NCBI GenBank assembly: GCA_019155205.2
Contig: JAHNZQ020003148.1
Coordinates: 439,103-503,102 of the forward strand
Direction of reading: 5' to 3'
Length of the DNA: 64,000 nt
DNA from: Gracilaria vermiculophylla
Taxonomy: Eukaryota; Rhodophyta; Florideophyceae; Gracilariales; Gracilariaceae
A program made the translations under genes and the position numbers. Below the pieces are notes generated by a model, which made no database searches, was not told the origin of the DNA, and saw only the letters and a list, made by a program, of their open reading frames with translations. This document shows, in pieces, positions 1,898-61,707 of this stretch (positions within the stretch are counted from its first letter, which is position 1; every line of letters begins with the position of its first letter).

Positions 1898-1903
1898 GAG
1901 TGG

Positions 1904-1946: not shown

Positions 1947-1954
1947 TGGAACGA

Positions 1955-17288: not shown

Positions 17289-18624
17289 GTGATCGACGCT
17301 ACAAAAAGACCGGCGATTTGATTAGTGCACGGCGTGTTGAGGTTAGAAGCTCCGGAAAGAAGTCAGAAGATATGTGATTGCAACCTGCAGCGTTCGTAGA
17401 ACATGTAGCTGGCTGGAGGCGAGGTTAAAGGAAGTCTAGAAGGGTGAGAGCAACACATAAACCTGCAAAATCAGTGCCAGCGACGAGCTGTGCGCTGTCA
17501 CTTGCAGACGGCCACCGTATTGGCGAATGCCTACGTGTACACGTTGGATACGCAAAAGACGCCAGTTGTGCAAATTTTGCAGGTGTTGGTTGCAGAACGC
17601 TACCCCTGTGGCTCGGGATGCGCAGGAAAAGCGCAGCGGCAGATGTTCTTCTTCACTAGATCGAGCGCCACCCTGAAAACCGGCAGGCGAGACATGTACT
17701 GAAGGATACTTGGCAAAACGCAATGCACAGACGTTGTGGCGGCTATCACGATTGTGAGGAAGGCGACACACCCCGCGGTCCTTCGGTTTCCCATGCAGCA
17801 GAATGTGCCATGCCTCCTATGGCATATAGCGCCGCGCGATTCATGCCCATTCCGCCGCGAAATTTTGAAAAGCAAGGTCAAACTCTTTGTAAATGAGCTG
17901 AAAAGCTGGGCGTGCAGGTGATCAACCATGAACAGGATGTCGCATGGTTGTCAATCGTCATCACGTGCCCATCAACCTGAATCAAACCGACAACACGCCA
18001 CTCACGACGAGGGTCCCACGAAGGATATCATATTCCAACGCTTCTTCGGACTTGTTTCTGCACGTACAACTTTCCTACCTTCGTAGAGTGCCCGAGGCAG
18101 GGCGACAGTGCGTCGCACCTCTCGGCGAACGCACAGTTCGCGCATCTCCGCAGTCGACGTCTAACCCACCACAGGCGGCGGCGGCGCGTGCGTACATCCA
18201 CAGTTCCACCTGCGAGACGCGTCACGCGCCGCTTCGATCGCTGAAGCGTCGCTGCACAGCAAGCACAGCTTCCCCACACCCTAATTGGCGGCTTGCAGAC
18301 GACCAATGCACGCGCGCCCATCCATTAATCAACAGTAACCGTATCCCGTTTCGTGTACACCTGGAGAGTACGCTGTTGGATAGATGTAGCGCTCCATGAC
18401 GTCACGCACGCCTCCGAGCTCACGGCTGTTCTTTCGCTTTCTGAAATCCCTCTCCAGCGCAACTTGTGCGGCGCTCGTTCATTTCCTTCCCCTGTGTTTC
18501 TCCTCTCCCCGTCTCCGCTGTTCATCCGCAGCGCCGTCAGCAGCCACTTATTGTTGTGAGCTTCTGTCCGATACTCAGCCTTGCTCGTTGTCGTCGTTGA
18601 CTTTTTCCTGCATTTTCTTTTCTC
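17289..18624. other. Intergenic between divergent ASCC2-like and GPDH genes
   Basis: About 1.3 kb. It contains both 5' regions. Short open frames on both strands (for example 17944-18399 and 18028-18321) overlap one another and show no family features. The last ~200 bp before the GPDH ATG is pyrimidine-rich. Confidence 0.5.
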
Positions 18625-19788
18625 ATGAAGCCAATTGTTATTCGCACCGAGGCAGGCGCACGCTCCCATGCCACTCCCTCCCCATCTCATTCCCGTCAGG
18701 AGTCTTGTGAGAACATACTTCCCACCAAAAAGATATGCATTGTTGGAGCAGGAAACTGGGGCAGTGCTGCCGCAGTTATCATTGCCAACAACGTAAAGAA
18801 CTTTGAATACTACCACGATACCATTAAAATGTGGGTCCATGAAGAAATCATTGACGGTGAAAAGCTTACAGACATCATCAACAACACTCATTACAACGTC
18901 AAATACCTTCCCGAGCATCGTCTGCCCGATAATATTGTCGCTGTTCCAGATTTACTGGAAGCCGCTGCCGACTGTACCGTCTTCGTGTTCGTGCTTCCCC
19001 ATCAGTTCCTGCCCCGCGCCTGCAAGACGCTAAAGGGGCACATACCGCCAGACTCTATTGCGATCTCTCTCATCAAGGGCATCGACTTTAACGCGAAGGG
19101 CGTGGTACTCATGACCGACATAATCAAGAACGAGCTTTCCATAGACGTTTCCGTTCTCAGTGGTGCAAACATTGCCAATGAAATTGCTGCAGGGAAGTTC
19201 TGCGAATCCACAATTGGATATTCAAATGCTGACAATGCCATCGTTTTCTTTGAGCTGTTCAACAACCGCAACTTCCGCATCAGTCTGATTAAGGACACCA
19301 ACGCTGTGCAGGTGTTTGGCGCCCTGAAGAATGTGATTGCATTGGGCGCTGGCTTTTGTGATGCGTTGGACATGGGCAACAACACAAAGGCGGCATTAAT
19401 CCGAATCGGTCTACTCGAAATGCATCGCTTCGCCAGCAAGTACTTCTCGCCCATTCACGACGCCACCATGGTCGAGTCATGTGGCCTTGCAGACTTGATC
19501 ACAACGTGTATGGGCGGCCGTAATCGACGCGTGTCTGAAGCCTTTGCCAGAGCTCGCGGTAAACGCTCGTGGGAAGAACTGGAAGATGAGATGCTCAAAG
19601 GACAAAAGCTGCAGGGGACAAGCACTGTGTTGGAAGTGATGAAGATTCTCAAACGAGATCAATGTGTGGAAGAGTTTCCCTTCATAAAACTGATTTACCA
19701 GATCGCCTATGAAGGTGCAGAAATTGAGACGATTGTGGATTTCCCGGACGAGCATGCGGCTGCGGCTTTGGACGATCTCGATGATTAA
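18625..19788 (+). CDS. GPDH: NAD-dependent glycerol-3-phosphate dehydrogenase
   Basis: A 387-residue enzyme that reduces dihydroxyacetone phosphate to sn-glycerol-3-phosphate. The Rossmann motif GAGNWGSAAA is at residues 41-50. The N-terminal ~34 residues precede the usual GPD1 start; they lack a clear transit signal, so the protein is probably cytosolic. Family motifs follow: SLIKGIDF, LSGANIANEIAAGKFCESTI, and the catalytic-region GALKNVIALGAGFCDAL with NNTKAALIRIGLLEM. The length matches eukaryotic GPD1 types. In red algae G3P feeds glycerolipids and floridoside, the main soluble carbon store, so this gene may serve both; that is inference. It is convergent with the KEA gene. Confidence 0.96.
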   Translation: MKPIVIRTEAGARSHATPSPSHSRQESCENILPTKKICIVGAGNWGSAAAVIIANNVKNFEYYHDTIKMWVHEEIIDGEKLTDIINNTHYNVKYLPEHRLPDNIVAVPDLLEAAADCTVFVFVLPHQFLPRACKTLKGHIPPDSIAISLIKGIDFNAKGVVLMTDIIKNELSIDVSVLSGANIANEIAAGKFCESTIGYSNADNAIVFFELFNNRNFRISLIKDTNAVQVFGALKNVIALGAGFCDALDMGNNTKAALIRIGLLEMHRFASKYFSPIHDATMVESCGLADLITTCMGGRNRRVSEAFARARGKRSWEELEDEMLKGQKLQGTSTVLEVMKILKRDQCVEEFPFIKLIYQIAYEGAEIETIVDFPDEHAAAALDDLDD

Positions 19789-20339
19789 CTTCCATCCCTC
19801 TGTTCTCAAAGCTTGGGATCGTAAGTGGCCTGATTCTTTGTACTCCTATCCCTTGCTTCGCATTTCTATTTTTTTCTTCTCAAAAGAAAGTGTCACACGC
19901 AGGGAGCGAGACGGCGATGAATTTACACAGTGGTATATTCGCGATCCCAATGATTCCTATATACTTGAATGCGGTTTGACTCCAAACTATATCTGCTATA
20001 ATGGCTAAATGTAGTGCACAACGAGTAGGAAAGGAACATAGACAAGAGACATAAATAACTGTTCATCGACTGCAATCCGTAGCTGTTGTCGCTTTCTCAC
20101 AACTACCAAAATTTTGAACAACACAGTGCATGTTCAGAAAATGTACGAATGGATTCCAAGCCCATATGATTTCGATCCGGAGGGCGTCAGCTCAGTAGCA
20201 AAAAAAACCATCACCAGGATGAAGAAGTGGGTTACCAAAACTTCATGTGTTGATAGCGACCGAAATTCCTCGACGATATAGATATGATACAATGGATGCA
20301 CCCGATAGGATATTTCTAGAATCCCGCGCTGCCAGATGA
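19789..20339. other. Intergenic between convergent GPDH and KEA genes
   Basis: A 551-bp AT-richer interval containing two 3' ends. No gene was seen. Confidence 0.6.
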
Positions 20340-22793
20340 CTACCTCACAGAATCTGATTCCAAATCTTCAACAACAACTGCCTTCTTCCCTTGCGCGACT
20401 CCGTCTTCTGATGGCACGCTTAGTTGTTCTGCCGGCTCGTAGATGTCCTCTGTGTCGTCCTTAGGGGTTGAGCCGAGTGGGATATCCTCACTCTTCACAT
20501 CAGACTCAACGGGTAGGAGCTCCGGTTCTTCGCTCTCATCCTCTTCTTTTAATTCTTCTTCAGCTTTCGAAGACTTTGGCTGTTGTTCATGAAGCGTGCG
20601 CGATCGTGATTCTCTGAAAATTGACCCAATGGTGGCAGTCACATCGTCCGCTACACCTATCTCCGAGAGATTCTCAGATCTGGCCTCCTCTACCAAGGAG
20701 TTAACTTCATCAAGAGGGGTTCCATAGTCTAACAGAACAGCTCCACCTAAAAGTAATGAAGCCTCAAGTAGCTCAGGAACAATAGCCGTGGCACCTGCCG
20801 CCTGCAGCAGTTTCTGATGTTTGGCATCGCGAGCGCGACAAAACACCTTAACTTCTTCAAACTCTCGGCGAATGTTTTGAACGGCTCTCAACGCTTGTTC
20901 CGGATCGTCAAGCGTGACGACGACAGCACGGGCTCTTTCAACGCCAGCAACTCTTAAAACCTCAGGACGAGAGGCGTCGCCAAAGAACACTGGCAAGCCC
21001 TTATTACGTGCATCAATGACTCGTGTTGGAGACATATCAAATGCCATATATCTCACAAGTTTGGCATCGAGCATTTCACAAACGGACTGACCAACACGGC
21101 CCCAGCCAGCGACCATGACGAAGTCGCGAGCATCAGCAGTGTCAGCGTCCTCCATACGTACACCGATAAGACCTCTCTTTTTCTCCAGTTGAGAAGATAT
21201 CTGCCGCCCAGCTGCAGCTAGAAGCGGTGTCACTGCCATAGATATAGCCACGACAAGCAACAACAGCTGACTCAAGTCGGTAGGCAGCACGCCAACTGAT
21301 AGCCCAAGCCCGAATATAACAAATGCAAACTCTCCCCCTTGAGAAAGAAGCAATCCAGTGCGTAGAGCAGACCCGACACTGAGACCAAATGCAACACCAG
21401 CGGCGGCGATAACGCTAGCCTTAATAGCCAACAACCCCGATACCAGAGAAATCACCTTGCTCATATTGGCCCATGCCAGATTAAGGTCAATAGAAAAGCC
21501 AACAGTCATGAAGAATAAGCCGAGTAGAAGTCCGCGGAACGGCTGAATATCCGCCTCAACTTGATGCCTGAACTTGGTTTCCGCAAGCATGACGCCCGCC
21601 AAAAAAGCTCCAAGAGTATCGCTCAATCCAAGCATCTGTGTCAGTGAAGAAGTACCGAGAACGGTGAGAAGGATCACTGCGATGAAGGCTTCCGGACTCC
21701 TAGCGCGGGCAACAAACCGAAAGAGAGGTTGCAAAGCGTTGTTGCCCATGAAAATAATGAAAGCGAGAGCCAGAACTGCTTTGACACTTGCAATACTGAC
21801 GGCGCGCAAAACGGCTGCCGGTGCTCCCGATCCAGCTAGAAGAGGGATGAGGACAAGAACAGGGACGACTACGAGGTCTTGAAACAAGAGGATACCGAAC
21901 GCGGCGCGGCCGAAGCGAGTGCCAACTTCACCACGTTCAGAGAGCAGCTGGAGCACAAACGCGCTGGAGCTCAAGGCCAGGGCCGCGCCGACAATGATGG
22001 CGGCTTGAGATGTGATGCCCGCAGCGATAGCGGCGGCGGTGATTATGGCGCCCGTGACAAAGAACTGGGCGGTGCCTAGGCCGAACACATCCGCGCGGAG
22101 AGACTTGAGCTTGGACGTAGAGAGCTCGAGACCCATCTCGAAGAGAAAGAAGACGACACCGAGTTCGGCAAGGGCCTTGGTTGTGCGTACATCGTTGACG
22201 AGGGCGAAGCCATTCGGCCCCAAGGCAACTCCGGCAGCTAGGAAGCCAAGAATAGGTGAAATGCCGAGGCGGCGCGCGAGCGGGATGATGATGACTGTGG
22301 CGATGAGTAGCACGAGCGCATCGTTAACTGCATGTTGATGGGAATCATGAGAGTGGTGAAGCAAGGACAGTAACGAAGAGCGAAGGCGGTCGATTCGGGC
22401 CGGCAGGGTGGCGAGAAAGTCGCGATGAGTGTCAGATTGCTTGGCGGACGAGTCGGGTTGTTGGTCTTTAGAAGGTGATGCGGCCGGGGTAACGGCGATG
22501 GCGCTCGCAACGGCGATGCGTCTCGATGTAAAGGCGGCTGGCACAGCGGGGGACGAGGACAAATCGGGGGGCTGGAAGGCGCGCGAAGGCGGCGGACGCA
22601 GGACGTGAGCGGCGATGGCGGCCACGGCCAGGGCGGTGCGCCATGGCGAGCGCGCGGGCTGCGGCGGCGGGGGAGGGCGATTTGAGTGAGCAACGGCGCG
22701 CAGCTGCAGCCTGCGGCGCTCGACGGGGAGCGGCGCGGAAGAGCCGCGCAGCGGAAGCGCGGCGATGAAGGCCGCGGACGGGGGAGGCGGCAT
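20340..22793 (-). CDS. KEA: Plastid KEA-type K+/H+ antiporter with RCK domain
   Basis: A cation/proton antiporter of the CPA2 family. The ATG at 22793 gives 817 residues with an Ala/Pro/Arg-rich transit-like N-terminus. The frame is also open to an ATG at 23132 (930 residues), but that part is low-complexity and reaches the promoter of the divergent cullin gene. Twelve or so hydrophobic segments follow, with KALAELGVVFFLFEMGLELS, ALALSSSAFVLQLLSERG and GILLFQDLVVVPVLVL, as in KEA1-3. A TrkA-N/RCK domain with the nucleotide motif VAGWGRVGQSV and FFGDASRPEVL regulates transport. A long Glu-rich C-terminal tail ends the protein. Plant KEAs tune stromal or lumenal pH and K+, for example relaxation of photoprotection by KEA3; which membrane is used here is not shown. 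Confidence 0.94.
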   Translation of the reverse strand: MPPPPSAAFIAALPLRGSSAPLPVERRRLQLRAVAHSNRPPPPPQPARSPWRTALAVAAIAAHVLRPPPSRAFQPPDLSSSPAVPAAFTSRRIAVASAIAVTPAASPSKDQQPDSSAKQSDTHRDFLATLPARIDRLRSSLLSLLHHSHDSHQHAVNDALVLLIATVIIIPLARRLGISPILGFLAAGVALGPNGFALVNDVRTTKALAELGVVFFLFEMGLELSTSKLKSLRADVFGLGTAQFFVTGAIITAAAIAAGITSQAAIIVGAALALSSSAFVLQLLSERGEVGTRFGRAAFGILLFQDLVVVPVLVLIPLLAGSGAPAAVLRAVSIASVKAVLALAFIIFMGNNALQPLFRFVARARSPEAFIAVILLTVLGTSSLTQMLGLSDTLGAFLAGVMLAETKFRHQVEADIQPFRGLLLGLFFMTVGFSIDLNLAWANMSKVISLVSGLLAIKASVIAAAGVAFGLSVGSALRTGLLLSQGGEFAFVIFGLGLSVGVLPTDLSQLLLLVVAISMAVTPLLAAAGRQISSQLEKKRGLIGVRMEDADTADARDFVMVAGWGRVGQSVCEMLDAKLVRYMAFDMSPTRVIDARNKGLPVFFGDASRPEVLRVAGVERARAVVVTLDDPEQALRAVQNIRREFEEVKVFCRARDAKHQKLLQAAGATAIVPELLEASLLLGGAVLLDYGTPLDEVNSLVEEARSENLSEIGVADDVTATIGSIFRESRSRTLHEQQPKSSKAEEELKEEDESEEPELLPVESDVKSEDIPLGSTPKDDTEDIYEPAEQLSVPSEDGVAQGKKAVVVEDLESDSVR

Positions 22794-23236
22794 GGCGGGC
22801 GAGCGGGCGGGCGAGCGGACGGGCGACGGGCGGGGGGAAAGCGGGCGAGGGTCGGCGCGCAATATGCGCCAGTCGCAAAACGGGTTGTTCGCTTCGGTAT
22901 CTTGTGGCGTAGAGAAACTTGATCTGCCGCGCCCTCCATGGCACGGCGCGTGGGCTGTAAGAGCGGGAGGCTGTAAGGTGGCAGGCGGAACGGCACGTGG
23001 ACAAGCACCCACCGCGGGAGGGCGCTGCTTGCGGACGTGACGCGGGGCGCACGGTGGCCGCGGCTGCGCATCCCACTCCACGTGCGTCGCGGCTGTAGGC
23101 TGGGCGCTGCTACCTTCGACGGGGGTATCCATAGTCGCTCAGACCGCCACCGCCGTCGCCACGCGTGCCGCCATCGTCGTCGCCGCGCGCGCCGCCTCCA
23201 CCCGCTTTCCTTCGGCTCGTCGCGTTTCGACTGCCC
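22794..23236. promoter_or_regulatory. Divergent KEA/CUL4 promoter region
   Basis: A 443-bp very GC-rich spacer between the preferred start codons. Long open frames cross it on both strands (one up to 486 codons from 23698), a composition effect. No TATA box was seen. Confidence 0.55.
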
Positions 23237-25516
23237 ATGGCCAGTGGCGCCGCCAATGCGTCGCGCGCCAGCGCGTCGCGCTCCACGCCCGCGCAGCGCG
23301 CCCGCTCCGGTGCGCCGCGCAAGATGCGCATCCGCAGCTACGACCGCAAGCCCGCCGTGCCGCCCGAGCTCTTCCGCCACGCTTGGTCCGTGCATCTGCA
23401 GCCCGCCGTCGACGCCGTCCACCAGAGCCGCCCCGTCACCGCCTCCCTGCAGGAGCTGTACGGCCACGTGCATGACGTCGTCCTGCATCGCCATGCGCCT
23501 GTGCTCTACGCCGCCTTGCGCGACGCCTGTGACCGCCACATCGCCTCCAGCATTGCCAAGCTGGCTGCCGTGCGCGCGGGCGAGCGCGCCTTTCTCGACG
23601 CCGTTTTGGCCGAGTGGGATGCCTTCTGCGCTCACATGCTGCGCATTCGAGAGATCTTTCGCTACCTGGACAGAACCTATATTGTTCACGCCGCTCACCC
23701 CGAGGCGCGTTCTTTCTGGGACATGGGTCTCCTCTTATTTCGCAATCATTTCTCAACCGCACCCAATCTGCAGAATCACACCGTCCACTGCCTTCTCTCG
23801 CTCATTAACAGTGAGCGCGACGGCGATGCCGTCGACGTCTCTCTCATTCGAAATCTTCTACAGATGTTCACCGCCATAGGCACATATGACAAGGCCTTTG
23901 AGAAACCCTTTTTGGCCGCCACAGACACGTACTATCGCAACGAGGCGCACAATCTCATTGCCTCACGAGACGTACCGGCATATCTCAAACACGCCGAACA
24001 TCGTATCTACGACGAATCTCAACGCTCTCTACGAACTCTTGATCCGCGAACTCGCAATCCACTCATCTCAACCGTCGAAATGCGTCTGGTCTCTGACCAT
24101 GTTCACACTCTACTCGAGAACGGCTTCAGTTCAATGTGCGACGACCACCGCAAAGATGACCTAAAGCGTTGCTACGTCGTCCTTTCACGCGCCAGCGACC
24201 ATATGCCTCCAGACTCTGACTCCCCGAACGAGCTCATGAAATCCCGACTCATTGACTACGTAAAGAAAGTTGGTCGCGCCATCGTCATGGACAAATCAAA
24301 GGACCCAGAGATGGTTCAGTCCCTGCTCAATTTGAAGTCCAGGCTTGATGACCTCGTCAATTACTCATTTGATGGCACGGAGGCGTTCAACATTGCCATC
24401 AATTTTGCCTTCGAATCCTTTGTAAACGCCCGGGAGAACAAGCCTGCAGAACTCATAGCCAAGTTTGTCGATGGCATTCTGCGGACAGGTAACAAAGGCT
24501 TTTCCGAGGAGCAACTAGAGTCTACGTTGGACAAGGCCCTTACGCTTTTCCGCTTTATTGATGGAAAAGACGTGTTTGAGGCCTTCTACAACAAGGATCT
24601 TGCTAAGCGTTTGCTTTACGACAAATCTGCAAGCTTGGATCTTGAAAAGAGTATGATTTCTAAACTAAAACAAGAATGTGGGCCTCAGTTCACATCCAAG
24701 CTGGAAGCCATGTTCCGAGATGTCGATGCTAGCAAGGACCTCATGCAGAGCTTTAGAACACACAAGATATCCAAAACTAAGCTACCCTCCGGCTTTGATC
24801 TCAACGTCTTCGTCTTGGAAGCTGCCAGATGGCCTCTTAGCACACAGCCCTCAAAAGTCAAGCTGCCTCAATTGCTAATGGATTGCCAAGAGGTCTTCAA
24901 GTTTTTTTACCTCACTAAACACAATGGTCGTAAACTTGCTTGGCAACATTTAGATGGATCATGCACTGTGAAGGCTCATTTTCCAGAGGGGACCAAAATC
25001 TTGCAACTCTCATTGTATCAGACTATTGTTATGGTTCTTTTCAATGACACTGACGAGATGTCATATCCTGACATCGCTGAGGCAACAGGTATTGACGAGC
25101 AACCCCTGAAACGAACTCTACTATCGTTGGCATGCGGAAAAGTTAGAGTTTTGCAAAAGAGGCCTAAAGGTCCTCGGATTGCATCTACTGATTCTTTTGT
25201 GTTTAACAAGAAGTTTTCTCATCGCCTAACAAAGCTCAAAATCAATGCGATCCAAATGAAAGAAACTGTCGAAGAGAATGCCGCTACGACTGAAAAGGTG
25301 TTCCAGGAAAGAAATTATCAGATCGACGCCGCTGTCGTGCGGATTATGAAGACAAGGCGAACATTGCAACATACTGCATTGCTGTCTGAAATATACAGTC
25401 AGTTGCGGTTCCCGCATAAGCCTGGAGATGTCAAGAAACGAATAGAGTCACTTATTGAACGCGAATATTTGGAAAGGGATGAAAACAACCCGCAGACTTA
25501 TCATTATTTGGCATAA
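23237..25516 (+). CDS. CUL4: Cullin, CUL4 type
   Basis: A 759-residue scaffold of a RING-cullin ubiquitin ligase. The ATG at 23237 is preferred; the frame is open from a GTG at 23165. Helical cullin repeats fill about residues 40-370, followed by the cullin-homology domain (FEAFYNKDLAKRLLYDKSAS) that binds RBX1, and the C-terminal winged helix. IQMKETVEENAATTEKVFQ and YQIDAAVVRIMKTRRTL match CUL4 closely; the Lys in VRIMK (about residue 705) is the NEDD8 site. The tail (RIESLIEREYLERDENNP) is complete. CUL4 works with DDB1 and DCAF receptors in DNA repair and chromatin control. No introns or lesions were seen. Confidence 0.96.
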   Translation: MASGAANASRASASRSTPAQRARSGAPRKMRIRSYDRKPAVPPELFRHAWSVHLQPAVDAVHQSRPVTASLQELYGHVHDVVLHRHAPVLYAALRDACDRHIASSIAKLAAVRAGERAFLDAVLAEWDAFCAHMLRIREIFRYLDRTYIVHAAHPEARSFWDMGLLLFRNHFSTAPNLQNHTVHCLLSLINSERDGDAVDVSLIRNLLQMFTAIGTYDKAFEKPFLAATDTYYRNEAHNLIASRDVPAYLKHAEHRIYDESQRSLRTLDPRTRNPLISTVEMRLVSDHVHTLLENGFSSMCDDHRKDDLKRCYVVLSRASDHMPPDSDSPNELMKSRLIDYVKKVGRAIVMDKSKDPEMVQSLLNLKSRLDDLVNYSFDGTEAFNIAINFAFESFVNARENKPAELIAKFVDGILRTGNKGFSEEQLESTLDKALTLFRFIDGKDVFEAFYNKDLAKRLLYDKSASLDLEKSMISKLKQECGPQFTSKLEAMFRDVDASKDLMQSFRTHKISKTKLPSGFDLNVFVLEAARWPLSTQPSKVKLPQLLMDCQEVFKFFYLTKHNGRKLAWQHLDGSCTVKAHFPEGTKILQLSLYQTIVMVLFNDTDEMSYPDIAEATGIDEQPLKRTLLSLACGKVRVLQKRPKGPRIASTDSFVFNKKFSHRLTKLKINAIQMKETVEENAATTEKVFQERNYQIDAAVVRIMKTRRTLQHTALLSEIYSQLRFPHKPGDVKKRIESLIEREYLERDENNPQTYHYLA

Positions 25517-25577
25517 TGCTGCTGTGTTGTTTTCGTGTTGTTGGCCTATTTCCTTGGTTTCGCGTTTTGGTGGTCAT

Positions 25578-25691
25578 CTCAAAGTTTCTAATCTCAACCG
25601 AACACAGGAGCCAAGGGTGATTTTTTATTAGGTACTCAAAGTTTCTTATCTGAACCGAACACAGGAACCAAGGCTGATTCTCTATTAGATC
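25578..25691. repeat. 57-bp tandem duplication
   Basis: Two adjacent 57-bp units (25578-25634 and 25635-25691), about 85-90% identical, each starting CTCAAAGTTTCT and containing CCGAACACAGGA. It lies just 3' of the cullin stop. Confidence 0.85.
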
Positions 25692-26010
25692 TCTCAATAG
25701 GATAAACAGTGGCTGGACCCACAAACTGGAACTACGACCACCACGACTTCTATCTGGTAAGGTTAGGCGCATATGGTGCGTGAAAGGTGCACAGGAAGAT
25801 TGTTAATCCCGGATGATGCCTAAATGAGAACTTCCATTGATGAATATCGAAGAATGAAGCTTCCGGCAATTCCGGTAAGCAGATGCGCACTGTGCTGCAG
25901 ATGCGAACTCCGCACTGTGGTGGTCGTTTTGGTGAACGGTTTTGTTTTTGAAGGAATACCAGTGCAGCACTCTGTCAGATTTGATAAAGCTGATTTCCGC
26001 GGTGGCCCGA

Positions 26011-26364
26011 ATGTTTGAGGATGATATGAGTCAAGGACTCGGGGGTGCGTCATCTCACACTATTTGTGATATGGAAATGTTTAGAATTTGGGCCCCTGTA
26101 TCAACATTATGGAAGGCCCTCGAGGCCATTTGCTGGGACGAAACCATTAGATATAAGTTGTCAATAGTAATAGATAAAAAAGGAAGCTGCCAGTTTACCT
26201 TTGGTACGTTCCAGACGTTGATTCAAATACGCATCTCAACCTCCGATTATTTGCATACTGACATACTTCGCAGCGAGCCCTTCCGATATGATTCTGCAGT
26301 AGAATGGGATCCACACTTCCATAACCTGCTGTCGACAACCGCAACTCCCGTTGGGTTGCGCTGA
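26011..26364 (+). CDS. Hypothetical 117-codon ORF
   Basis: An ATG-initiated frame (MFEDDMSQGLGGASSH) ending 13 bp before the methyltransferase ATG, in a different frame. No domain is recognised. It could be leader sequence of the methyltransferase transcript. Weak support. Confidence 0.25.
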   Translation: MFEDDMSQGLGGASSHTICDMEMFRIWAPVSTLWKALEAICWDETIRYKLSIVIDKKGSCQFTFGTFQTLIQIRISTSDYLHTDILRSEPFRYDSAVEWDPHFHNLLSTTATPVGLR

Positions 26365-26377
26365 TCCGGTTCGCAAT

Positions 26378-27853
26378 ATGAAAAAAGGGAGAACGTTCCT
26401 ACGCCTCATAAGAATCGCTGTATTGGTCTTGTTCATAGTGGCATTCTTTCTTCGGTTCAGATCCCCACCTTTTCCAAAGCTAACAGCGTGCGCGGATCCG
26501 TTCTACGTGAGAGTGCCAAACACGGTCAATACTCCGCACATCACGTCGAAATGGCCATGCATAGTAATACCTCCGAAGAACTATACCCCACCCCTTTCCC
26601 GCCCTCGCTCGCTTTGGCGTACTCCGTTGGCCAATGTCGGTGAGCTTGACACAAGTAACCCCGAGTATCGACTTCATCTTGCAAACCAAAGATGGGCGCG
26701 ACTAGAGGCACATGAGATCAACATACGCGAAGAGGGTGGAACTTCTGGCAGATCATTTACAGACAACTTTGTATATGTGAAGTTCTTACTTCAACAGCTC
26801 AAACCCATATCTCGGTGTGCACCTGATTCCCCTCTCGTGATGTTGGATACGGGAGCCGGTATAGGCTCCGTTGCAGCAGCTCTGGTTGATAAACGTGGTG
26901 GGGATGGCGCTATCAAAGCGCTCTCTTACGTTTGGCCGGATGATTACCTTAGATTGCAAACGATCATCTCCGACAGAGGACTTCCTTCTTTCTTGGCCAA
27001 CTTCACAGGATCATTACCGTTTCCTTCTTCGACATTCGATATCGTACACTGTAAATGGTGTTGGCATCACATCGCAGGTTACGGCACATGGTTGAAGGAG
27101 GTTAATCGTCTGTTGATACCAGGAGGTTTCTTCATTTTTACTTTTGCTCCGGAAGGAACAGAGTTGCTTGAGCATCCGAGATGGGAAAAAGCATTGGCCC
27201 AACAGCCCTTTATATGCAAAAGAGTCCATAGAATCGTTACTATGTGCCAAAAGCATCGTGCCGTGGCCAAAAAGGAGAACAATGGGGATCGTTTCCGAAG
27301 AGCAGTATACTGCCCCAAGGGCCTTGAGAAGTCGATGTCGAGATCGAAAAGGAGGCTTCAAGCCAGAATGCTGAATGTGGAGAACGAGCTCATGCTGACA
27401 GCCAAAGCGATGAAAGAGGAATCAAAAAATAGCACGGCGAGAGTTTTGAATGTTAACTGTCCAGATGCGGTACTGTGCAAGAGTTTGGATTCTATTCCCA
27501 ACGTTAGTGTGCTTCATGTGAATCAAAAGTCTCAGAACCAAGTTGTGAGAGGCATTCTCAGCCTAGGAGGCCTGGGAATGTTGCACGAATGGAAGAATAA
27601 TGTTCCTGTGTATCCACGATCATTTGATGTTGTGATCCTTGGCTGCAATCGACGATCAAAGCATTTTCTCGGGCAACAACAGTTTTGGTTTGAACTCAAT
27701 CGAGTGCTCAGACCGGGGGGTTTGGTAATTCTGATGAGAAGTTTTTGTCGATGGTACTTCAGTATGCCTGTGAAACCGCTTGGGTTTCACACGAAGAGGA
27801 TTACGAACGACTTCTATCTTTCAAGAAGACTCGAAATGCGAGAATTCACATGA
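26378..27853 (+). CDS. Membrane-anchored methyltransferase, plant-PMT-like
   Basis: A 491-residue protein starting at the ATG at 26378 (MKKGRTFLRLIRIAVLV). Basic residues then a single hydrophobic segment at about residues 9-27 give a type II signal anchor, as in Golgi enzymes. Two methyltransferase-like halves follow. The first has SAM motif I (LDTGAGIGSVAAAL, about 156-168), then FDIVHCKWCWHHIAGYGTW and EVNRLLIPGGFFIF. The second has FDVVILGCNRR and ELNRVLRPGGLVILM. The motif order matches the plant PMT/QUA2 family (DUF248), which methylates wall polysaccharides in the Golgi. A red-algal role in galactan methylation is possible but is inference. A truncated inverted copy is at 661-1897. Confidence 0.85.
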   Translation: MKKGRTFLRLIRIAVLVLFIVAFFLRFRSPPFPKLTACADPFYVRVPNTVNTPHITSKWPCIVIPPKNYTPPLSRPRSLWRTPLANVGELDTSNPEYRLHLANQRWARLEAHEINIREEGGTSGRSFTDNFVYVKFLLQQLKPISRCAPDSPLVMLDTGAGIGSVAAALVDKRGGDGAIKALSYVWPDDYLRLQTIISDRGLPSFLANFTGSLPFPSSTFDIVHCKWCWHHIAGYGTWLKEVNRLLIPGGFFIFTFAPEGTELLEHPRWEKALAQQPFICKRVHRIVTMCQKHRAVAKKENNGDRFRRAVYCPKGLEKSMSRSKRRLQARMLNVENELMLTAKAMKEESKNSTARVLNVNCPDAVLCKSLDSIPNVSVLHVNQKSQNQVVRGILSLGGLGMLHEWKNNVPVYPRSFDVVILGCNRRSKHFLGQQQFWFELNRVLRPGGLVILMRSFCRWYFSMPVKPLGFHTKRITNDFYLSRRLEMREFT

Positions 27854-44237: not shown

Positions 44238-45305
44238 CTATGGAATTGTGGAATCTGATGATGACATGAGAACTAGTTTAGAAGCGGGACGATCATATGA
44301 GTCAGCTAATGCTTTCTGCACATCCAGAGCACTGGGCATACTGGGAACCTTTGCCAAATGTTTCTCCACTGTCTTTCTCGCAAACGCAATACATTCACCG
44401 TCCAGGAGCTCGTTGTCAAGTATATATTTCAGGACCAACGAAATGTGACCGATCATCTCAAGTTCTGGCATTGAGTACGATCCGAAAGGTTTGAAGTCTC
44501 CAAGCAAAGGAACTCGTTCTCCGAAAGCGTTAGAATCGTCAATCGTGAGCTCGACCTCTGCCTCATGTGCAAGTGCTAAACAGTCTAGCACAGCATGTAT
44601 GCTTCCGCCGAGTGCCACCCACACGGTAACACCGTTTTGAAATGCTTTTCTGGTGCAGATCTGCGTGCTCGTAATGCTGCATTCTATACACGTGAACAAG
44701 GCCTCGAAACTACGCACGCAGGTTTGTACATTGTCTTTGCTGATGTTTTTCTGACTGTCTACAGCTGTGGGTCCAGTGGAATAGGGAACACGCATTCCCA
44801 CATCTTCGCCTCTGCTTGATATTAGATATGCAGTGAACATCCGACCGCGACTACCAATTACCAGACAATAGTTACGTTCCTTTTGCCCCAACTCAGCGTC
44901 ATCGATCTTCCCCGCTGAAGGCGCGCCAATAGCTTTGCGTGTAAAACTCACGGTAGTATCTACCACTTCCAGATGACCTGGAAGGATGGTTCCCCCGTAC
45001 AGCATGACTCCAACAGAGTCGTTCCTTAGAATTGGCATCGATGCAGCGGCAATGCTCTTGTCACATCTACTAAGGGTCCCCATACCGTCTGCCAGGTGGT
45101 GTCCATTCATAATTTCAATACACTTGGGCACAAGGTCTCGTGAAATGAGCCAATAGCGCATGCCGGTCGTTTCCATGTTATTTCCATCAGATATTACAAG
45201 AGTGCCGAACAAGAATGCCTTTCTGCAAGTGTTCCGACGTCGTGCTACAGAATTTCGAGAAGCATTTACGTGAGCCATACACGGAGTGGCATTGGCATGA
45301 GTCAT
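44238..45305 (-). pseudogene. Truncated dihydroxyacid dehydratase (IlvD/ILV3) pseudogene
   Basis: A 355-codon frame from the ATG at 45305 with clear homology to dihydroxyacid dehydratase, the Fe-S enzyme of branched-chain amino-acid synthesis: NNMETTGMRYWLISRDLVPK, GHHLADGMGTLSRCDK, LYGGTILPGHLE, VALGGSIHAVLDCLALAHEA and FGERVPLLGDFKPFGSYSMP. It lacks the C-terminal third (normal length about 560-600). The Cys-rich cluster segment before GMFTA is replaced by SRGRMFTA, so the Fe-S site is incomplete. The CDK cysteine is kept. An open but inactive relic; the N-terminal part is repeated inverted at 46215-46556. Confidence 0.8.
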
Positions 45306-45372
45306 GCGATGGTCATGATTGGTTTTCAAAAGCCTTCATCATTAAAAATAACGACGTGCAGCATCTGTGCTG
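44968..45372. repeat. Left arm of a ~0.4-kb inverted repeat (DHAD N-part)
   Basis: Reverse complement of about 46158-46553, high identity (for example both arms read GGTTTTC/CAAAAGCCTTCATCAT on the appropriate strand, with small differences). The ~785-bp spacer 45373-46157 has no recognised gene. Confidence 0.85.
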
Positions 45373-55140: not shown

Positions 55141-56745
55141 CATAAGCAAAAGAGATCAAACAGAATTTGAACATCGGCGAGAAACCCACGTTCTTTTAGC
55201 TTGAAAGTAATTCTTGCGTCAAGCAGCACGACGATCACATCCTTCACGAGAGATGGTGATCCAGATTGCCCATGAAAATGATGATGTCATCTATGTTGAC
55301 AACGAAAGTCGACCTCTTAAAGTGGCTCATTGAGGTGTAAATGGCACGTTGAAAGGTGGGTGGGGAGCTGGTTGAACCGGACGATATCACCCGTAGGCGA
55401 TACGATCTTGCATGGCAGTTGGATACCGTTTCGTCACGATCTTCCTCCCGAACAGGGACTTGCTAACATCCCTAATTGGTATCCAAAACCATAAAAAACG
55501 TTGGCCTATCAAGCAAATCAATGCACTTGCCGATATGAGAGATTGTGCAGGTTTCTCGTTACGTCAAAGCATAAAGCAATATTTGTGATCCATGCAAGAG
55601 CTTTTGGGCAAAAATATTACGGTACATGCCGAAACACAATTATTTTATCGTAAATAAAAAAGATATATCTTCTGCTGCTGGGCACAACTAAAGGTGCATG
55701 GGTGGTCCCAAAATTCGCAATTGTGTTTTGGTTCGATAAATTTCGTAGTATCTTCAAACAATTTACCCTTTCTAAACCATTTCAACGGCGATACATCGAC
55801 CATTGATTTGTTAGTTTTTTCATCGAATGCTAATCTTCAAGCATCATAGGCGACACTGAATAGTTCCAACATATTAATTTTCTTACAAAATTCTGCAACA
55901 AATTAGCTATTTATTTATTTAAGAAGTTTACAACGGAAAGCGGTTTCAAATAGATAACAAGCTGGACTACATGGTCAATTCGAAGTTTATCTCTAATTTT
56001 TTAAATCTTTATTGCAAATTGGAGTATCCATCTCCTATCTTCACTGGACCTGGAAAAGCAAAAATAATTCGCTTTTTTCGAAGCAAAAGTGTCAAAAAGA
56101 CTTAGGAATCAAAAGTTGCGTTCTTGAGTGGAAAACTAGATAAACGTAGATACTCATCGAAGTACCTGAGATCAGCTGTGAATTAAACCTGCGATAAAAT
56201 TTGAAAAAAATCTCTATGGAAACATTGTGTCTGAAGAGATCCGAGGTGGCAAATGTATAGTTCCACAATATCATTTAGCCATCACATCGACGTAGAAATT
56301 ACTTTTGGACATTATCATGACGAGGCATAAATGGCGAGAACTTTATTGAAACTGGCCATGATTCATACATAGTATGCAAGAAAGATGATACGGTTACGCA
56401 GTGCCTTATTAGCAGCGACGACGGCTCAAGCAGTTAAAAATAGAGAAAGGGTCCCAGCCCGAAAACCACCGTTCCACGTGGCAAAGCAGATACTTAGACT
56501 TTGATTGAGAGCATTTAGACAGTATATCCTTAGTGCCAAAATTTATTGATCACTATACTGTACATAACATGTTTCCGTGCAATAGTTTTGCTTGTCTCCC
56601 CCTCCAGATACAAAAAGTAGTTGAACGTGTTCTTCACGTCTTTCTTGAGGAACGTGCCACTTTTTACGCTTGATGGAAAGAAAATGGCTGGATGGCAACG
56701 CGTCAAACTTTCGCAACCATGAACGGCTCAGGACATCCAAAAACC
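55141..56745. other. AT-rich intergenic, nothing recognised
   Basis: About 1.6 kb with no open frame over 75 codons that has any family feature, and no clear repeat beyond the palindrome at its right edge. Confidence 0.6.
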
Positions 56746-56752
56746 GGCTATC

Positions 56753-56769
56753 GATCAGTATACTGATCA
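56753..56769. repeat. Palindrome at left edge of nuclease-bearing transposon
   Basis: GATCAGTATACTGATC plus one base; its 16-bp core ATCAGTATACTGATCA is self-complementary and identical to the centre of the palindrome at 60471-60492. The preceding GGCTA is also shared in direct orientation. Confidence 0.85.
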
Positions 56770-56828
56770 TAAGAATGCGCTTTCTGTCCTAGCAAACTAC
56801 CCCATACCGGTAGCCAAGACCCCGCTTT

Positions 56829-57491
56829 CTATACCAAACGCCGCCTCCGCCCCCCTCCTTCGATGTTACTGCTCCCCTCTCGCGGTCTCCGTCGTGATTT
56901 AGACGGACACTCACTTGCAAGCGAGATTCTCGTGGATCTACTGAGGATCACCAAGTCGTTAGATGCTGTTGAAGAGATATCATCCGCCTCAATGTTCACA
57001 TCGTTGCTATTGACAGCACTCTGTACGGCGTCCAATTCGACGCTGCTTCCACGCGACACTGCTGCATGTGTACTTCGGGGCTTGAGCATCCTCACAGAAT
57101 GCCACACATGCCAGCAGCTTTTACGCAGCCCTGGGTAAACTCTCATACATAGAGGTGTCGAAGATAAAGTGCATGAGTATGTCGACCGATGACCGTGGTA
57201 CCGCCCAGGATGTTGTCCACAAAGCGTGCAGTACTACACAGCACCCTGCTTTGAACTGTGTCCGGGAACAGAAATCCGTAGAGCCACCCCTTCTGCGGAG
57301 TTGAAAAAAGCTAATCGCTTCCTCTTCCGTCCATGAGCAAGAGCTATGAGCCTTTTAACCTCGTAACTATCACCCAGCATCCCTTCAACAGCTGCACTCT
57401 CTTTTTCAGAGGCAAGGAGTGTGGCCGCATAGCTCAAAAGTTCCTGTGAAATGTCAAACATGAAATCAGCTGTTCCTTGAACTTTGTTCAA
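56829..57491 (-). pseudogene. C-terminal tail with zinc-ribbon-like segment
   Basis: Continues from the nuclease ORF after a frame change. It reads QELLSYAATLLASEKESAAV, then a TAG at about 57234, then YCTLCGQHPGRYHGHRSTYS with further Cys, PLC, KSCWHVWHS. The Cys/His spacing resembles the C-terminal zinc ribbon of piggyBac-type transposases. An acidic Ser-rich end and a basic GGGRRRRLV terminus follow. Confidence 0.55.
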
Positions 57492-58645
57492 ATTGTTGCG
57501 ATAGCGCTCTCCAAAGAATGAAATGTTTGTGACGACTCCAGCAGGTCTTGTCTTTCAAACATTTGGCAGCCGAAAAAGGCGTTGATGGCTATCGTCTTGA
57601 TGGTTTGTGAAGCAATCTTTTGCCCCCATTTAAAATGAGATGTTGAGCTTTTCCAGATTGCTCTCTGTTGCGTAGCACCATCAACTCCAGCTTTGGTTTC
57701 GGAGTAAAACGTTTGGGTTGCGTGTTTGAAAAGCTTCAAGGGTGGAAAAAATCCCTCTTTCCGTACATGGTCGTCAATGGTATGCCAAAACTTGTGCCTT
57801 GTCAGCAACGTTCGCTGGAATTCCGCAGTTACAAACGACGGGATGGTGAGAGTGTCCTCATGAGCCCACTTTACAATTGGACTGGCGATATCCATTAAAA
57901 CATCCTCGCACGTCCGAAGCACCATCCCAGAACATCTATAGACGACAATGTACAGAATTCTCGTCTCAGCGGCGGCAACATAAATGCCAACCCGAAGACC
58001 AAGCACGAACACCTGTTGCATGATTTGAGCCATGTGCCCTTTAGGGATGTACTTGTGGAATGTATCATCTCCTGCCTCACAAAGCACCACGTTTGGGCAT
58101 GAAAGCAATACTGCTTCTTCTACGCTTGAATCCGCCACCCTGGTCTTGATCTCCACGCATGCAAGGATGATGTCGTTGCCTTCACCATCTTGCATTGTTA
58201 CCTCATCCACGCCTTCGGAGTCATAGATAGATGTATCGAGCACTGCTATCCCATCTGGTGAGCAGGCAAGGAAACGACGCTCCTTAAAAGCCAACATTCC
58301 CACTTCAAACACGGCTGTTACAAAGGGCTTTGCTCGAAGTGCACTTAAAACGGCGCATTCGTTCGCGCTTCCTCGCATCATCGCCTCCGTAGAGGTCTTT
58401 GTACTATAGCATTCCTTATATAACCTCTCAAACCACTGTGGGATTGTCGTTTCCTCCGTGCCATTGCTTGCCGGAAGTCGCAGTATGGATCTGAAGCATG
58501 GACTGCTCATCAGAACGAGAACGGCATTAGTACCGGTCACGCAAAATTGCCGCAATACGAACCAATCAGCACACCTCTGCGATACAGTTAGCACCTCACA
58601 TCTCTCGCGAAGAAACCCCGACACCACAACCTGAAGGTCTTGCAT
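57488..58645 (-). CDS. YqaJ/lambda-exonuclease-type nuclease fused to piggyBac C-part
   Basis: A 385-codon ATG frame in the same frame as the upstream transposase ORF and only 21 bp from its stop. The PD-(D/E)XK core is complete: Glu96 in RGSANECAVLSAL, Asp131 in FLACSPDGIAVL, and Glu165-x-Lys167 in ACVEIKTRV. The YqaJ-type helix HMAQIMQQVFVLGLRVG follows. The last ~80 residues change character: YSETKAGVDGATQQRAIW, then HFKWGQKIASQTIKTIAINA. This matches the GGVDxxDQ block and following NAY-containing helix of piggyBac transposases, which hold the third catalytic Asp (here Asp322). So the nuclease domain sits between transposase parts. Confidence 0.75.
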   Translation of the reverse strand: MQDLQVVVSGFLRERCEVLTVSQRCADWFVLRQFCVTGTNAVLVLMSSPCFRSILRLPASNGTEETTIPQWFERLYKECYSTKTSTEAMMRGSANECAVLSALRAKPFVTAVFEVGMLAFKERRFLACSPDGIAVLDTSIYDSEGVDEVTMQDGEGNDIILACVEIKTRVADSSVEEAVLLSCPNVVLCEAGDDTFHKYIPKGHMAQIMQQVFVLGLRVGIYVAAAETRILYIVVYRCSGMVLRTCEDVLMDIASPIVKWAHEDTLTIPSFVTAEFQRTLLTRHKFWHTIDDHVRKEGFFPPLKLFKHATQTFYSETKAGVDGATQQRAIWKSSTSHFKWGQKIASQTIKTIAINAFFGCQMFERQDLLESSQTFHSLESAIATI

Positions 58646-58666
58646 CTCAATTTCCCGCCGAAGTGT

Positions 58667-59518
58667 CTAGAACAAGGTAAACTTCTTGTCTACGTTCTGT
58701 TTGGGAACCGCAATCCACGTATTAAGAGCACCCTGAATCCCCGCTGGCACAGTGTACATGTATCGCAGCACCTTCGAAAACTTGTCTGTACCTCGTTCAC
58801 GTATTGCAATAGCATTCACGCTGCGGTGTCGAGAGCAACACCGGCTTGTACCAGCTTTTTTTGTTGCGAAGAATGCTTCTGGACCAAGAGTCGGGTCATC
58901 GTCGATCACAAATGTGCGGCGACGATCGCAGTATAGCTGTTGTGGAACGACAGCAGGATGTTTCCCATTACCCTCGCCATGCGTATCCCCCATCCCAGCT
59001 GCCCCGGGTTCTGACTCACCTTCCGCATCCCCGATATCAAGCGCTTCATCTTCCAAGTCATCGCGTACCGGGACTAGGTAGGATAGCCCGACGAAAGGAT
59101 GCACGCGGAGCAAATGTTCCGGCATAACAAACACAGAACTTAAACCGAAACCTGAGAGTATCTCCAAAAAAGATTGCTTTCCGTAGCCTCTGTCTGCAGT
59201 TACTATGCAACCACTGTTTGCCTCCTCCCCCCTGTCATCAAGTACTGTCGAAAGAAGCTTTTTCAAAGACTCTGTCTGAGCTTCACCTCTACGACGAAAG
59301 CGTATGGCCAGGATGATGCGAAAGAGGGCATCAGCTAAAACGTGCGCCGAATGTCCCTCCTTGTCAGCATTGCGTGCAGTTAACATTTTCACTTGATTGT
59401 CGGACGCTCGTGTCCAGTACAGGTCGTCATCGAGGGTCGCAAGCAGATGTAGCGGACAGAAAAAGACCTTCCGAGTATCCCTGAAAGCAAGGCTTTGAAA
59501 CTCGGCCATGTGGCGCAT
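58667..59518 (-). CDS. PiggyBac-like DDE domain, first two acidic residues
   Basis: A 283-codon frame, the same frame as the RG-rich ORF upstream and the nuclease ORF downstream. LATLDDDLYWTRASDN (about residues 27-41) fits the first catalytic Asp region, and SGCIVTADRGYGKQSFLEIL (Asp109) the second. AIAIRERGTDKFSKVLRYMY resembles the strand before the third Asp in this family, but no third Asp follows before the stop; it lies in the next ORF. An acidic/Gly-rich insert is at about 150-190. Separated from its N-terminus by TGA at 59537-59539 with six sense codons between. Confidence 0.65.
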   Translation of the reverse strand: MRHMAEFQSLAFRDTRKVFFCPLHLLATLDDDLYWTRASDNQVKMLTARNADKEGHSAHVLADALFRIILAIRFRRRGEAQTESLKKLLSTVLDDRGEEANSGCIVTADRGYGKQSFLEILSGFGLSSVFVMPEHLLRVHPFVGLSYLVPVRDDLEDEALDIGDAEGESEPGAAGMGDTHGEGNGKHPAVVPQQLYCDRRRTFVIDDDPTLGPEAFFATKKAGTSRCCSRHRSVNAIAIRERGTDKFSKVLRYMYTVPAGIQGALNTWIAVPKQNVDKKFTLF

Positions 59519-59536
59519 CTGGTCTCTCTGCGCATT

Positions 59537-60286
59537 TCAATGCATCTCTCCTTGCCTACCGCGTCCAGTACGGGCGTATGCAAGAATGCTGTCCGCAATA
59601 AATGGAACACGATCAAGAGAAGGTGCTGTACTCCCTGCCTGGCGAAGCATTTCGATGGTCTTCTCGAAACTAAAACCGGTTGTGTGAGATAAAAGCAACA
59701 CGGAGACGTAGCGATACATTTCAGGGATACTCACACATTCCTGATCTTTGTTTCGCAGTCGAATGTCTTCATTGACCCAGTTTCGTAACTGGTCGATGAG
59801 GCCTTGTAGGAGGAGCACCGTAAAGCCGCAGCGAGTACGAGGCAGACTGCGTGCGTCACACTGTAGTTTTAGCTGGGTACCTGCATTGCTACAGAACATC
59901 CGCGCTCTGTTTTGGATGACCTTCTCAGCAAAAGCGCTCTCCAAGACGACAGTCTCACAGGTAGTCTTGTTCAATGTCCATACTTCACTGGGGTCGTCGT
60001 GACGTGCGCCTGTCGTTCCTCCCCCGCGACCTCTTCCCCTAGATCTGCCACTTGTGGCTCCATGCCCCCTCCCTGATGAATCTCTAGCTCTTCCTCTCCC
60101 TCGTGATCGCCTTGCTCCCCCGATACGACTAGCCGCACTCTTTAAACTGCCTTGTATGGCTTGGCTTGCGACAGGGGCATGCGCGGGACTACTTTGTGGC
60201 GCTGGAGTACCGACGGGTTGTGCAGAGGCCTGCACCGGCGTGGGTTGGGTCGTGGTATTCTGCTCACCGGGCACGACGGTAGCCAT
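59537..60286 (-). CDS. RG-rich N-terminal part of the same transposase
   Basis: A 249-codon ATG frame. A Gln/Pro/Thr-rich start is followed by an Arg-Gly tract (RSRGRGRARDSSGRGHG), then a helical domain (NWVNEDIRLRNKDQECVSIP; MYRYVSVLLLSHTTGFSFEK) that resembles the N-terminal helical domain of piggyBac-type transposases. The basic tract may bind DNA or act as a nuclear signal. It ends in TGA and the frame continues directly into the DDE ORF. Confidence 0.65.
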   Translation of the reverse strand: MATVVPGEQNTTTQPTPVQASAQPVGTPAPQSSPAHAPVASQAIQGSLKSAASRIGGARRSRGRGRARDSSGRGHGATSGRSRGRGRGGGTTGARHDDPSEVWTLNKTTCETVVLESAFAEKVIQNRARMFCSNAGTQLKLQCDARSLPRTRCGFTVLLLQGLIDQLRNWVNEDIRLRNKDQECVSIPEMYRYVSVLLLSHTTGFSFEKTIEMLRQAGSTAPSLDRVPFIADSILAYARTGRGRQGEMH

Positions 60287-60470
60287 GTTGGATGCGTTTG
60301 TTAGGAAAGATGATGTTTCACCTACCGCAGCGGTTTCTTGTCGGATTTTGAATATTGAAAGCTTGGCGTGGTGGCAATAGGGAGATCAATCATGAGCGAG
60401 GAGAAAACGGAAGCTTTCAGGGTTTTTGAGATCAAAACCATGGCCTAAAAGGACGCCCCAATTGAGGGCT

Positions 60471-60492
60471 ACTGATCAGTATACTGATCAGT
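60471..60492. repeat. 22-bp perfect palindrome at right edge of the transposon
   Basis: Two ACTGATCAGT units (each itself palindromic) joined by AT. It lies between the piggyBac-like block and the PIF/Harbinger fragment (stop codon 60499-60501). Confidence 0.9.
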
Positions 60493-60498
60493 GGGCCC

Positions 60499-61260
60499 TT
60501 AAAGTGAAAATGCGTCTAAACCTTTATGTTCAATATAGTGATCATTGAGCGGCTCCNNNNNNNNNNNNNNNNNNNNNNNNNNNNNNNNNNNNNNNNNNNN
60601 NNNNNNNNNNNNNNNNNNNNNNNNNNNNNNNNNNNNNNNNNNNNNNNNNNNNNNNNGTTTCAATCCATCAGCCATTGCGTAAACATCTTCAAGAAGCGAG
60701 TATTTTTCACTGATAGCCGTTTGGTAGCTGGCAATTTCTGCAGCGGTTGGCATGCATATTCTACCGTTTTCATTATTTCGCAACGCTCGTAGCAAGAGTC
60801 TTCGTCCAAAACGCAAAAACATAGAGCAAACAGAAGAAGTTATACCAAATATTATTGAAAGCACCATCATAGAACCTCTCGTTCGATACCATGAAAGCGT
60901 CAGTCCTAGACAGTGCACTGCTGTGAGAGATCGTGGGCGACCTCTTGGTTTGGCTCTCAATGGAATTATGCGGATGTGTCCTTCTGAACTATACGGAGTA
61001 TAGGTTGCGTAAAGTGGTTCAAACAAGGAAAGTAAATATCCAAACGATTTGTGGTCAAAGCCGCAGAGAGTTATTAAAGATTGATCGCATCCTGAGCCAA
61101 AAAGCATCACGAAAGCTGATGAAGATGGATGATGTAATGCTTTACGAGTAATGCGGCGATCACGACGTCTTCTGCCACTTAGCGATAGTCGTTTCCGAAA
61201 ATCTATACACCGGGTTTTTTTTGATTCCTGTAGTTGTAAGAGAACGATGAGTGGGTTCAT
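60499..61260 (-). pseudogene. PIF/Harbinger-type transposase fragment, cut by gap
   Basis: From the ATG at 61260 the frame shows the Harbinger (DDE_Tnp_4) signature: LITLCGFDHKSFGYLLSLFE, KPRGRPRSLTAVHCLGLTLS, WYRTRGSMMVLSIIFGITSS, then DVYAMADGLK with the first catalytic Asp. The scaffold gap 60557-60656 follows, then 19 codons to a stop at 60499. A whole protein needs about 150 more residues, so either the gap hides them or the gene is truncated at the palindrome. Confidence 0.75.
60557..60656. other. Scaffold gap (100 N)
   Basis: Exactly 100 N, inside the Harbinger transposase. Confidence 1.
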
Positions 61261-61707
61261 AGCGACAGAAGGGCGCGTAAGAAGCTCCTTCACGGGACTG
61301 GCGATGGAGAAAACCAAAGTCGGGTGCACAAGCTGACCAGGTGGGGTCTGGAGTGAGGGTGCTGGAGGCGATGCTCGGGCAGAGCGCTCTAAGCAATCTG
61401 CGGTTGTTAGAAACCACAGTGGTCCACAATTGCAATGTGCGGACTCATGTGCGTTTATGTTTTCAGTGCATGATCACGAAATGGTACAGAAAAATGAAAG
61501 GATGTTTGGCGACATCTGTGTGCACATAATTTGTGTTTTTCGGAGTCGCTCATTGTGGGCAGTAGGAATATGACAGTCCCCATTGCCTCTCAAATCTTCA
61601 CGGTCAAGCACCACTTTTCTGTTAGGCAGCGACGAGTCTTCAACAAAGAAAAGCCGTTTTCCTTTGTCAAAACCCCCTGTTCCCACCCCCCTGTCGATAC
61701 GTACGGT

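Follow-up and report, generated by a model that had tools for sequence, protein, structure and literature searches.

A dead piggyBac-related transposon of the red alga Gracilaria vermiculophylla with a YqaJ-like nuclease predicted inside its transposase

A decayed DNA transposon resides in a 64,000-nucleotide stretch of the genome of the red alga Gracilaria vermiculophylla (assembly GCA_019155205.2, contig JAHNZQ020003148.1, positions 439,103 to 503,102), hereafter called the window, where it occupies positions 56528..60556 of the minus strand. The window copy is dead, and belongs to a cut-and-paste, piggyBac-related lineage. We think it fairly probable that the element once encoded a transposase of about 1,150 amino acids, with a catalytic triad of three aspartates (DDD) and a YqaJ nuclease domain lodged between the second and the third; that this nuclease resected the donor site is the least certain part of the reading. 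A single open reading frame (ORF), the order of the domains, the predicted folds, conserved residues, ATAT at three insertions, bipartite ends and constraint between subfamilies make up the demonstrated part of this reading.

The genome searched amounts to 44.8 Mb in 27 contigs, and the boundaries of the copies were set by BLAST. Seven near-full-length copies, one of which is in the window, and further partial ones have common end points according to BLAST and alignment, and each of the seven diverges by 4.5-5.6% from the majority sequence. The window copy has lost its 5' terminus in an assembly gap (60557-60656). The original prediction had assigned the interval 56829..60286 to a piggyBac-like transposase; these are the limits of the family ORF (minus strand, about 1,151 codons, ATG at 60286, stop at 56829-56831 common to all seven copies), but the element is larger, reaching from 56528 to the gap. 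In the seven-copy alignment, columns 175-3730 hold one frame without any stop common to more than two copies, and the remaining two frames carry many stops common to 5-7 copies. In the window the frame is split into three minus-strand ORFs (59537-60286, 58667-59518 and 57488-58645), found, as is a Cys/His stretch in another frame, at the positions claimed. The frame had been described as broken by only two stops, which holds up to the third catalytic Asp (codons 250 and 540) but not beyond, as the frame change is followed, ahead of the Cys/His ribbon, by a further stop. The stops at codons 250 and 540 are private damage, since each is present in one of the seven near-full-length copies; the 2-nt insertion near 57507 that changes the frame is unique to the window copy. 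Fourteen genomic places are matched by ORF2 or ORF3, and ten carry both parts in identical order and orientation, thus the pairing of the domains is not due to chance. The other four are the internally deleted L052, L049 and L050, located in loci with long N runs, and a C-terminal piece on contig C21. Short non-autonomous derivatives were not found by searching the genome with the 5' end, which hit nine places, all known copies. The terminal 14-mer pattern, with at most one mismatch, occurs at 16 genomic places, versus 5 for the reversed control; four one-mismatch matches fall outside known copies, two on C7, one on C14 and one on C27.

The piggyBac fold, made of DNA-binding and RNase-H domains, is seen in the predicted models. 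A dimerisation/DNA-binding region is mapped from the models to 59444..59944 of the minus strand, ahead of the first catalytic Asp (LDDD, codons 286/287, 59426..59431), which sits at the end of a beta-strand. The second Asp (TADRGYG, codon 365, 59192..59194) is located by alignment columns and model, and the third (GVD, codon 869, 57680..57682) by columns and profile alignment, in which it pairs with piggyBac residue 447. A beta-rich subdomain at 58703..58879, drawn from the secondary structure of the model, precedes the nuclease and may correspond to the usual insertion region. Searched against the PDB, the family profile has a single match with E<0.01, the Trichoplusia ni (T. ni) piggyBac transposase 6x67 (E 2.3e-4). 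TKGGVD of the profile aligns with residues 442-447 of this protein, bearing out the earlier proposal that the GVD block corresponds to piggyBac; the triad, with its third Asp in KGGVD, is conserved in the columns of the family alignment. A Cys/His ribbon (57099..57233, minus strand), moved to another frame by the private 2-nt insertion, marks the C terminus, and the same pattern is present in those relatives read that reach that end. PF13842 was detected in one of 32 members (E 0.0059), and the C termini of the family and of 6x67 align weakly (-3.1 bits).

The nested domain (57779..58606, minus strand) was delimited by its fold in the models and by its residues. Both predicted models place it between the second and the third Asp of the piggyBac fold, as had been foreseen on the basis of the letters alone. 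It exhibits a PD-(D/E)XK core with E, D and E-x-K (E643 at 58358-58360, D678 at 58253-58255, E712 and K714 at 58145-58153), and Glu96, Asp131, Glu165 and Lys167 of ORF3, singled out by the original prediction, fall on these four family columns. By residues and modelled fold, the domain looks like a YqaJ/lambda-exonuclease type nuclease. At E<=0.01 the Pfam profile PF09588 (YqaJ) recognises 21 of 32 members, the best value being 1.1e-7, and it gives 17.9 bits with ORF3 of the window, below the 22-bit cut-off. A whole-genome scan with PF09588 returned no match at E 0.001, though protein queries did find the domain, which is probably too diverged for the profile. NCBIfam yielded weak matches below the cut-offs in four relatives. 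Alignment of the family with lambda exonuclease by hhalign reached a probability of just 4.9%, though SPDG and E-x-K lined up, and for this reason the identity of the nuclease rests on fold and residues instead.

The single-chain arrangement recurs in other proteins. Using the read-through window protein as query, 7991 candidates sharing most words were scored, and 31 related proteins were returned (E 0 to 4.3e-99). Of these, 25 can be read at the second Asp as well as at the GVD Asp, and in 23 of the 31 a single chain holds all seven residues, the three Asp (the first at column D287) and E, D, E and K of the nuclease, so that transposase and nuclease are not always separate genes. The two exceptions among the 25 are P0012, with E for K, and P0021, with a gap over the stretch containing E and D; in the partial relative P0026, K replaces the second E. 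No chain with the DDE and GVD regions and without YqaJ, hence no non-fused sister, emerged from a motif search of the 31. Relatives are 32-49% identical to the window protein, except P0002 from Gracilariopsis chorda, the closest named match among the candidates scored (about 89-90%), which reaches at most 90.0% in any stretch aligned with the fetched genomic copies. The G. chorda proteins P0002, P0021 and P0030 and P0027 of Chondrus crispus are all partial: P0002 ends before GVD, P0030 begins after the second Asp, and P0021 spans the transposase core to the Cys-rich tail, minus a nuclease stretch. A profile search gathered 64 proteins, the additions being mostly fragments, including one from Spongospora subterranea restricted to the transposase part; this short protein retrieved in turn 51 proteins, mostly short pieces, and a diatom protein. 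Outside the red algae, the transposase part thus has two relatives: P0047 of S. subterranea is 48% identical to P0007, and P0096 of the diatom Cyclotella meneghiniana (494 aa) is 31% identical to P0047; in neither sequence is there a nuclease or GVD region. One scan of viral contigs gave one pattern match and no relative, hence no hint that a virus carries the gene. Within the genome, a second subfamily (B) includes L047, L048 and L050. L047, 41-52% identical to the window ORFs, is free of stops for 613 aa from the transposase core into the nuclease, before one stop and an assembly gap. The same domain order in an open frame, the search for which had been suggested as a check, is thus found among the single-chain relatives and, over these 613 aa, in L047.

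The ends are bipartite and asymmetric: 5 or 9 bp separate a terminal repeat of 10 bp from an inner repeat of 21 bp. Neither these ends nor a target other than TTAA had been noted in the original prediction. In the window, the 3' terminal inverted repeat (56528..56567, minus strand) includes the 10-bp terminal part, of the CCCTAG type with one change, a 9-bp spacer and the inner repeat; the 5' inner repeat is at 60524..60544 (minus strand), its 10-bp partner being lost in, or altered beside, the gap. Eight 5' ends and eight 3' ends are readable in subfamily A; six of the former and five of the latter have CCCTAG, from which the others deviate by one or two bases. In subfamily B CCCTAG occurs at two 5' ends, and CCCTGC and CCTTAC are present at two 3' ends. 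These termini fit the CC[C/T]T-type motif of piggyBac terminal inverted repeats, as given in the relevant section of PMC2872659. The flanks are ATAT on the 5' side of seven of eight subfamily A copies (ATGT in L046) and on the 3' side of all eight, and at the four readable ends of subfamily B. The window copy retains the 3' ATAT (56524..56527), the 5' one being lost in the gap. To find empty sites, the two flanks of each of seven copies were joined and used as genomic queries. Matches continuing across the junction were obtained for L046, L040 and L045, all in repeats, and self or one-sided matches only for L044, L042, L043 and L052. Six of the 21 such matches listed for L046 were read, together with all seven for L040 and all three for L045. 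Each of these 16 has four bases at the junction with no gap; they are ATAT in 7 cases and differ from it by one base in the other 9. Because the empty sites hold one ATAT-like 4-mer, the insertions of L046, L040 and L045 generated a 4-bp ATAT duplication. The TTAA duplication of the piggyBac superfamily is not found at these three insertions, and the label piggyBac-related is consequently preferred to classical piggyBac. A few beetle piggyBac elements deviate from TTAA, according to the portion of PMC12732532 dealing with target sites. L040 (G000:C17:535000-544500) sits in a repeat, seven paralogues of which serve as its empty sites, and its joined flanks resemble by eye a Tc1/mariner transposase. 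Repeats of ~550 bp, roughly 75-96% alike and in both orientations, are found near L040, L041, L044, L046 and L051.

Traces of selection are seen between subfamilies. When the window copy is compared with L047, the identities at codon positions 1/2/3 are 0.64/0.77/0.36 over 170 codons of the transposase core, and 0.54/0.65/0.27 over 202 codons of the nuclease. Among the eight copies of subfamily A, substitutions are even over codon positions (shared 39/34/42, single 318/280/300). The pattern within the genome is, judging by these counts, one of neutral decay. Bias between subfamilies, and none within A, suggest therefore that both domains were selected while the element was active, and that the copies have decayed since. 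Among substitutions confined to a single copy of the element, counted over the genome, there is a bias to G>A and C>T (437 of 1157), a skew that cytosine deamination would produce.

Some data weigh against the proposed reading. TTAA, the usual hallmark of piggyBac, is replaced by ATAT as the target. At E<=0.01 the piggyBac profile PF13843 (DDE_Tnp_1_7) matches just 2 of 32 members, with a best value of 8.2e-7, and the window protein is not among them, its ORFs remaining unmatched even at E 1; of the Pfam searches proposed at the outset, that for the nuclease thus gave a sub-threshold signal and that for the transposase none, but structure prediction, proposed as well, returned a piggyBac fold with a nested nuclease domain. 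Foldseek alone gave similar values for piggyBac (E 1.2e-3) and Tn5 (E 1.1e-3), with low whole-model TM-scores. Codon-position bias is lacking within the genome, and signs of selection are confined to the comparison of subfamilies and to the protein alignment. Finally, lambda exonuclease acts as a ring-shaped trimer, described as toroidal in the title of PDB entry 1avq, and a domain tethered inside a transposase might be unable to work as an exonuclease.

How the enzyme may have worked can be outlined from its homology with piggyBac, for which the mechanistic part of PMC8151067 describes synapsis of asymmetric ends, hairpins on the transposon ends, and joining at a palindromic 4-mer. A dimer would bind the transposon ends and nick them, hairpins carrying the four ATAT bases would form on these ends, and would then be opened, and the ends joined to a new ATAT. 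The ATAT palindrome would permit complementary overhangs as TTAA does. In the least certain step, the nuclease, positioned beside the excision site, would resect the 5'-phosphorylated donor ends and leave the hairpin-capped ends of the transposon untouched. Duplex ends with a 5' phosphate are the preferred substrate of lambda exonuclease; resection of the donor is favoured because the piggyBac route would leave such ends there, and the transposon would be capped by hairpins. Resection would block the seamless religation typical of piggyBac and favour templated repair, by which the donor copy would be restored. Resection of donor ends by the nuclease is put forward tentatively. That an exonuclease inside the catalytic domain couples ATAT excision to donor resection in a distinct pathway, the donor copy being regained by repair, is likewise a possibility, though less likely than not.

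With an identical architecture, the nuclease could instead serve the transposon itself, opening or trimming the ATAT hairpins or processing the gapped integration product as an essential step of transposition. The position between the second and third Asp, which ties the nuclease to the catalytic domain, and the conservation of its residues, about as high as that of the DDD residues, suit this view. Yet the piggyBac hairpin opens without another nuclease, and an exonuclease acting there would plausibly destroy the terminal repeats, so that we rate it unlikely. Insertion domains are common at this position in DDE enzymes, and the window copies are dead; YqaJ may accordingly have been captured as a DNA-binding or architectural module whose catalysis is no longer relevant, as in other large insertion domains. 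The retention of E, D, E and K in 23 of 25 covering relatives, among proteins 32-49% identical to the window protein, makes this rather improbable. YqaJ-type nucleases exist as separate phage and giant-virus proteins, and one directed at competitors or the host, for instance through destruction of invading DNA or a change in repair, might be linked to the transposase only physically; its being nested in the catalytic domain, and neither encoded by an ORF of its own nor fused to one terminus, points to a role in the same complex, and we give this explanation very little credit. That a YqaJ gene entered a piggyBac copy which was dead by then, or that the assembly is at fault, might be suspected from the stops and the adjoining gap. 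The single-chain relatives refute this, and the ten places with both parts in the same order and the uninterrupted stretch in the second subfamily speak against it.

The family resembles several known systems. Members of the piggyBac superfamily (T. ni 6x67, piggyBat 9c0f) share with it the DNA-binding and RNase-H fold, the third Asp in KGGVD, CCCTAG-type termini, asymmetric inner repeats, a palindromic 4-bp duplication and perhaps the C-terminal Cys-rich domain. The family differs in targeting ATAT, in the ~270-aa extra exonuclease domain before the third Asp, in being hardly recognised by PF13843, and in protein length, ~1,150 aa versus the 500-725 aa noted for beetle piggyBacs in a section of PMC12732532. 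Non-fused piggyBac elements reside in the same genome, as denoted by 118 PF13843 matches; those covering the full profile span about 1.1-1.3 kb, and leave no space for a nuclease. These elements belong to the same superfamily and, at the three tested, duplicate 4 bp at a palindrome other than TTAA (CTAG), but their terminal sequence is unlike that of the nuclease-bearing family. CTAG is present on both sides of L001, L006 and L007 (G000:C1:978100-982257, C17:1958329-1962444 and C21:2050380-2054309; empty sites L067-L069 and L073-L076). Empty sites read CTAG, CTAC and CTAG for L001 (3 of 4 listed matches read), CTTC, CAAC and CTTC for L006 (3 read), and CTGG for L007 (1 read); L006 and L007 show clearly that the size is 4 bp, but less clearly that CTAG is preferred. 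ISL2EU elements of the PHIS group are also DDE transposons carrying a YqaJ exonuclease. There, as outlined in parts of PMC4482050 and PMC9179366, YqaJ is a second ORF beside an HTH and THAP DDE transposase, the target is AT, and the hosts are animals only; a single ORF, a piggyBac fold and a 4-bp ATAT duplication exclude our family from this group. Lambda exonuclease, YqaJ and RecE-type enzymes are separate phage proteins, whereas here the domain is nested in a transposase. DEDDh nucleases are of a different class from PD-(D/E)XK enzymes. According to a passage of PMC3627910 that cites Kapitonov et al., one of the former is reported for P elements and for piggyBac. A YqaJ domain nested in a transposase was not found in the literature searched, whose coverage leaves out most subscription papers and the Repbase reports.

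Other mobile sequences lie close to the element. A Ty3/gypsy reverse-transcriptase-like fragment was recognised by eye at 55200-55500 (minus strand), ~1 kb past the 3' end, and beyond the gap an ORF at 60660-61329 (minus strand) looks by eye like a Harbinger-type transposase, with no Pfam match at E 0.001. Ordinary nuclear genes fill 10873-27853 and 44238-45329, among which an XRN exoribonuclease, serine hydroxymethyltransferase, glycerol-3-phosphate dehydrogenase, a Na/H-exchanger with TrkA_N, a cullin, a methyltransferase and dihydroxy-acid dehydratase.

After a DDE transposase has cut, it is normally the host that repairs the break in the donor. A nested exonuclease would put end processing under the control of the transposase itself. 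Since piggyBac is known for scarless excision, a change in outcome would be most visible there, and the single-chain version makes the question of end processing testable. Target choice of piggyBac type can shift to other 4-mers, ATAT here and CTAG-type in the neighbours, a point that matters for how a tool in wide use for gene delivery recognises its targets. If the reading is true, this family would represent, along with ISL2EU, a second independent recruitment of this type of nuclease by transposons.

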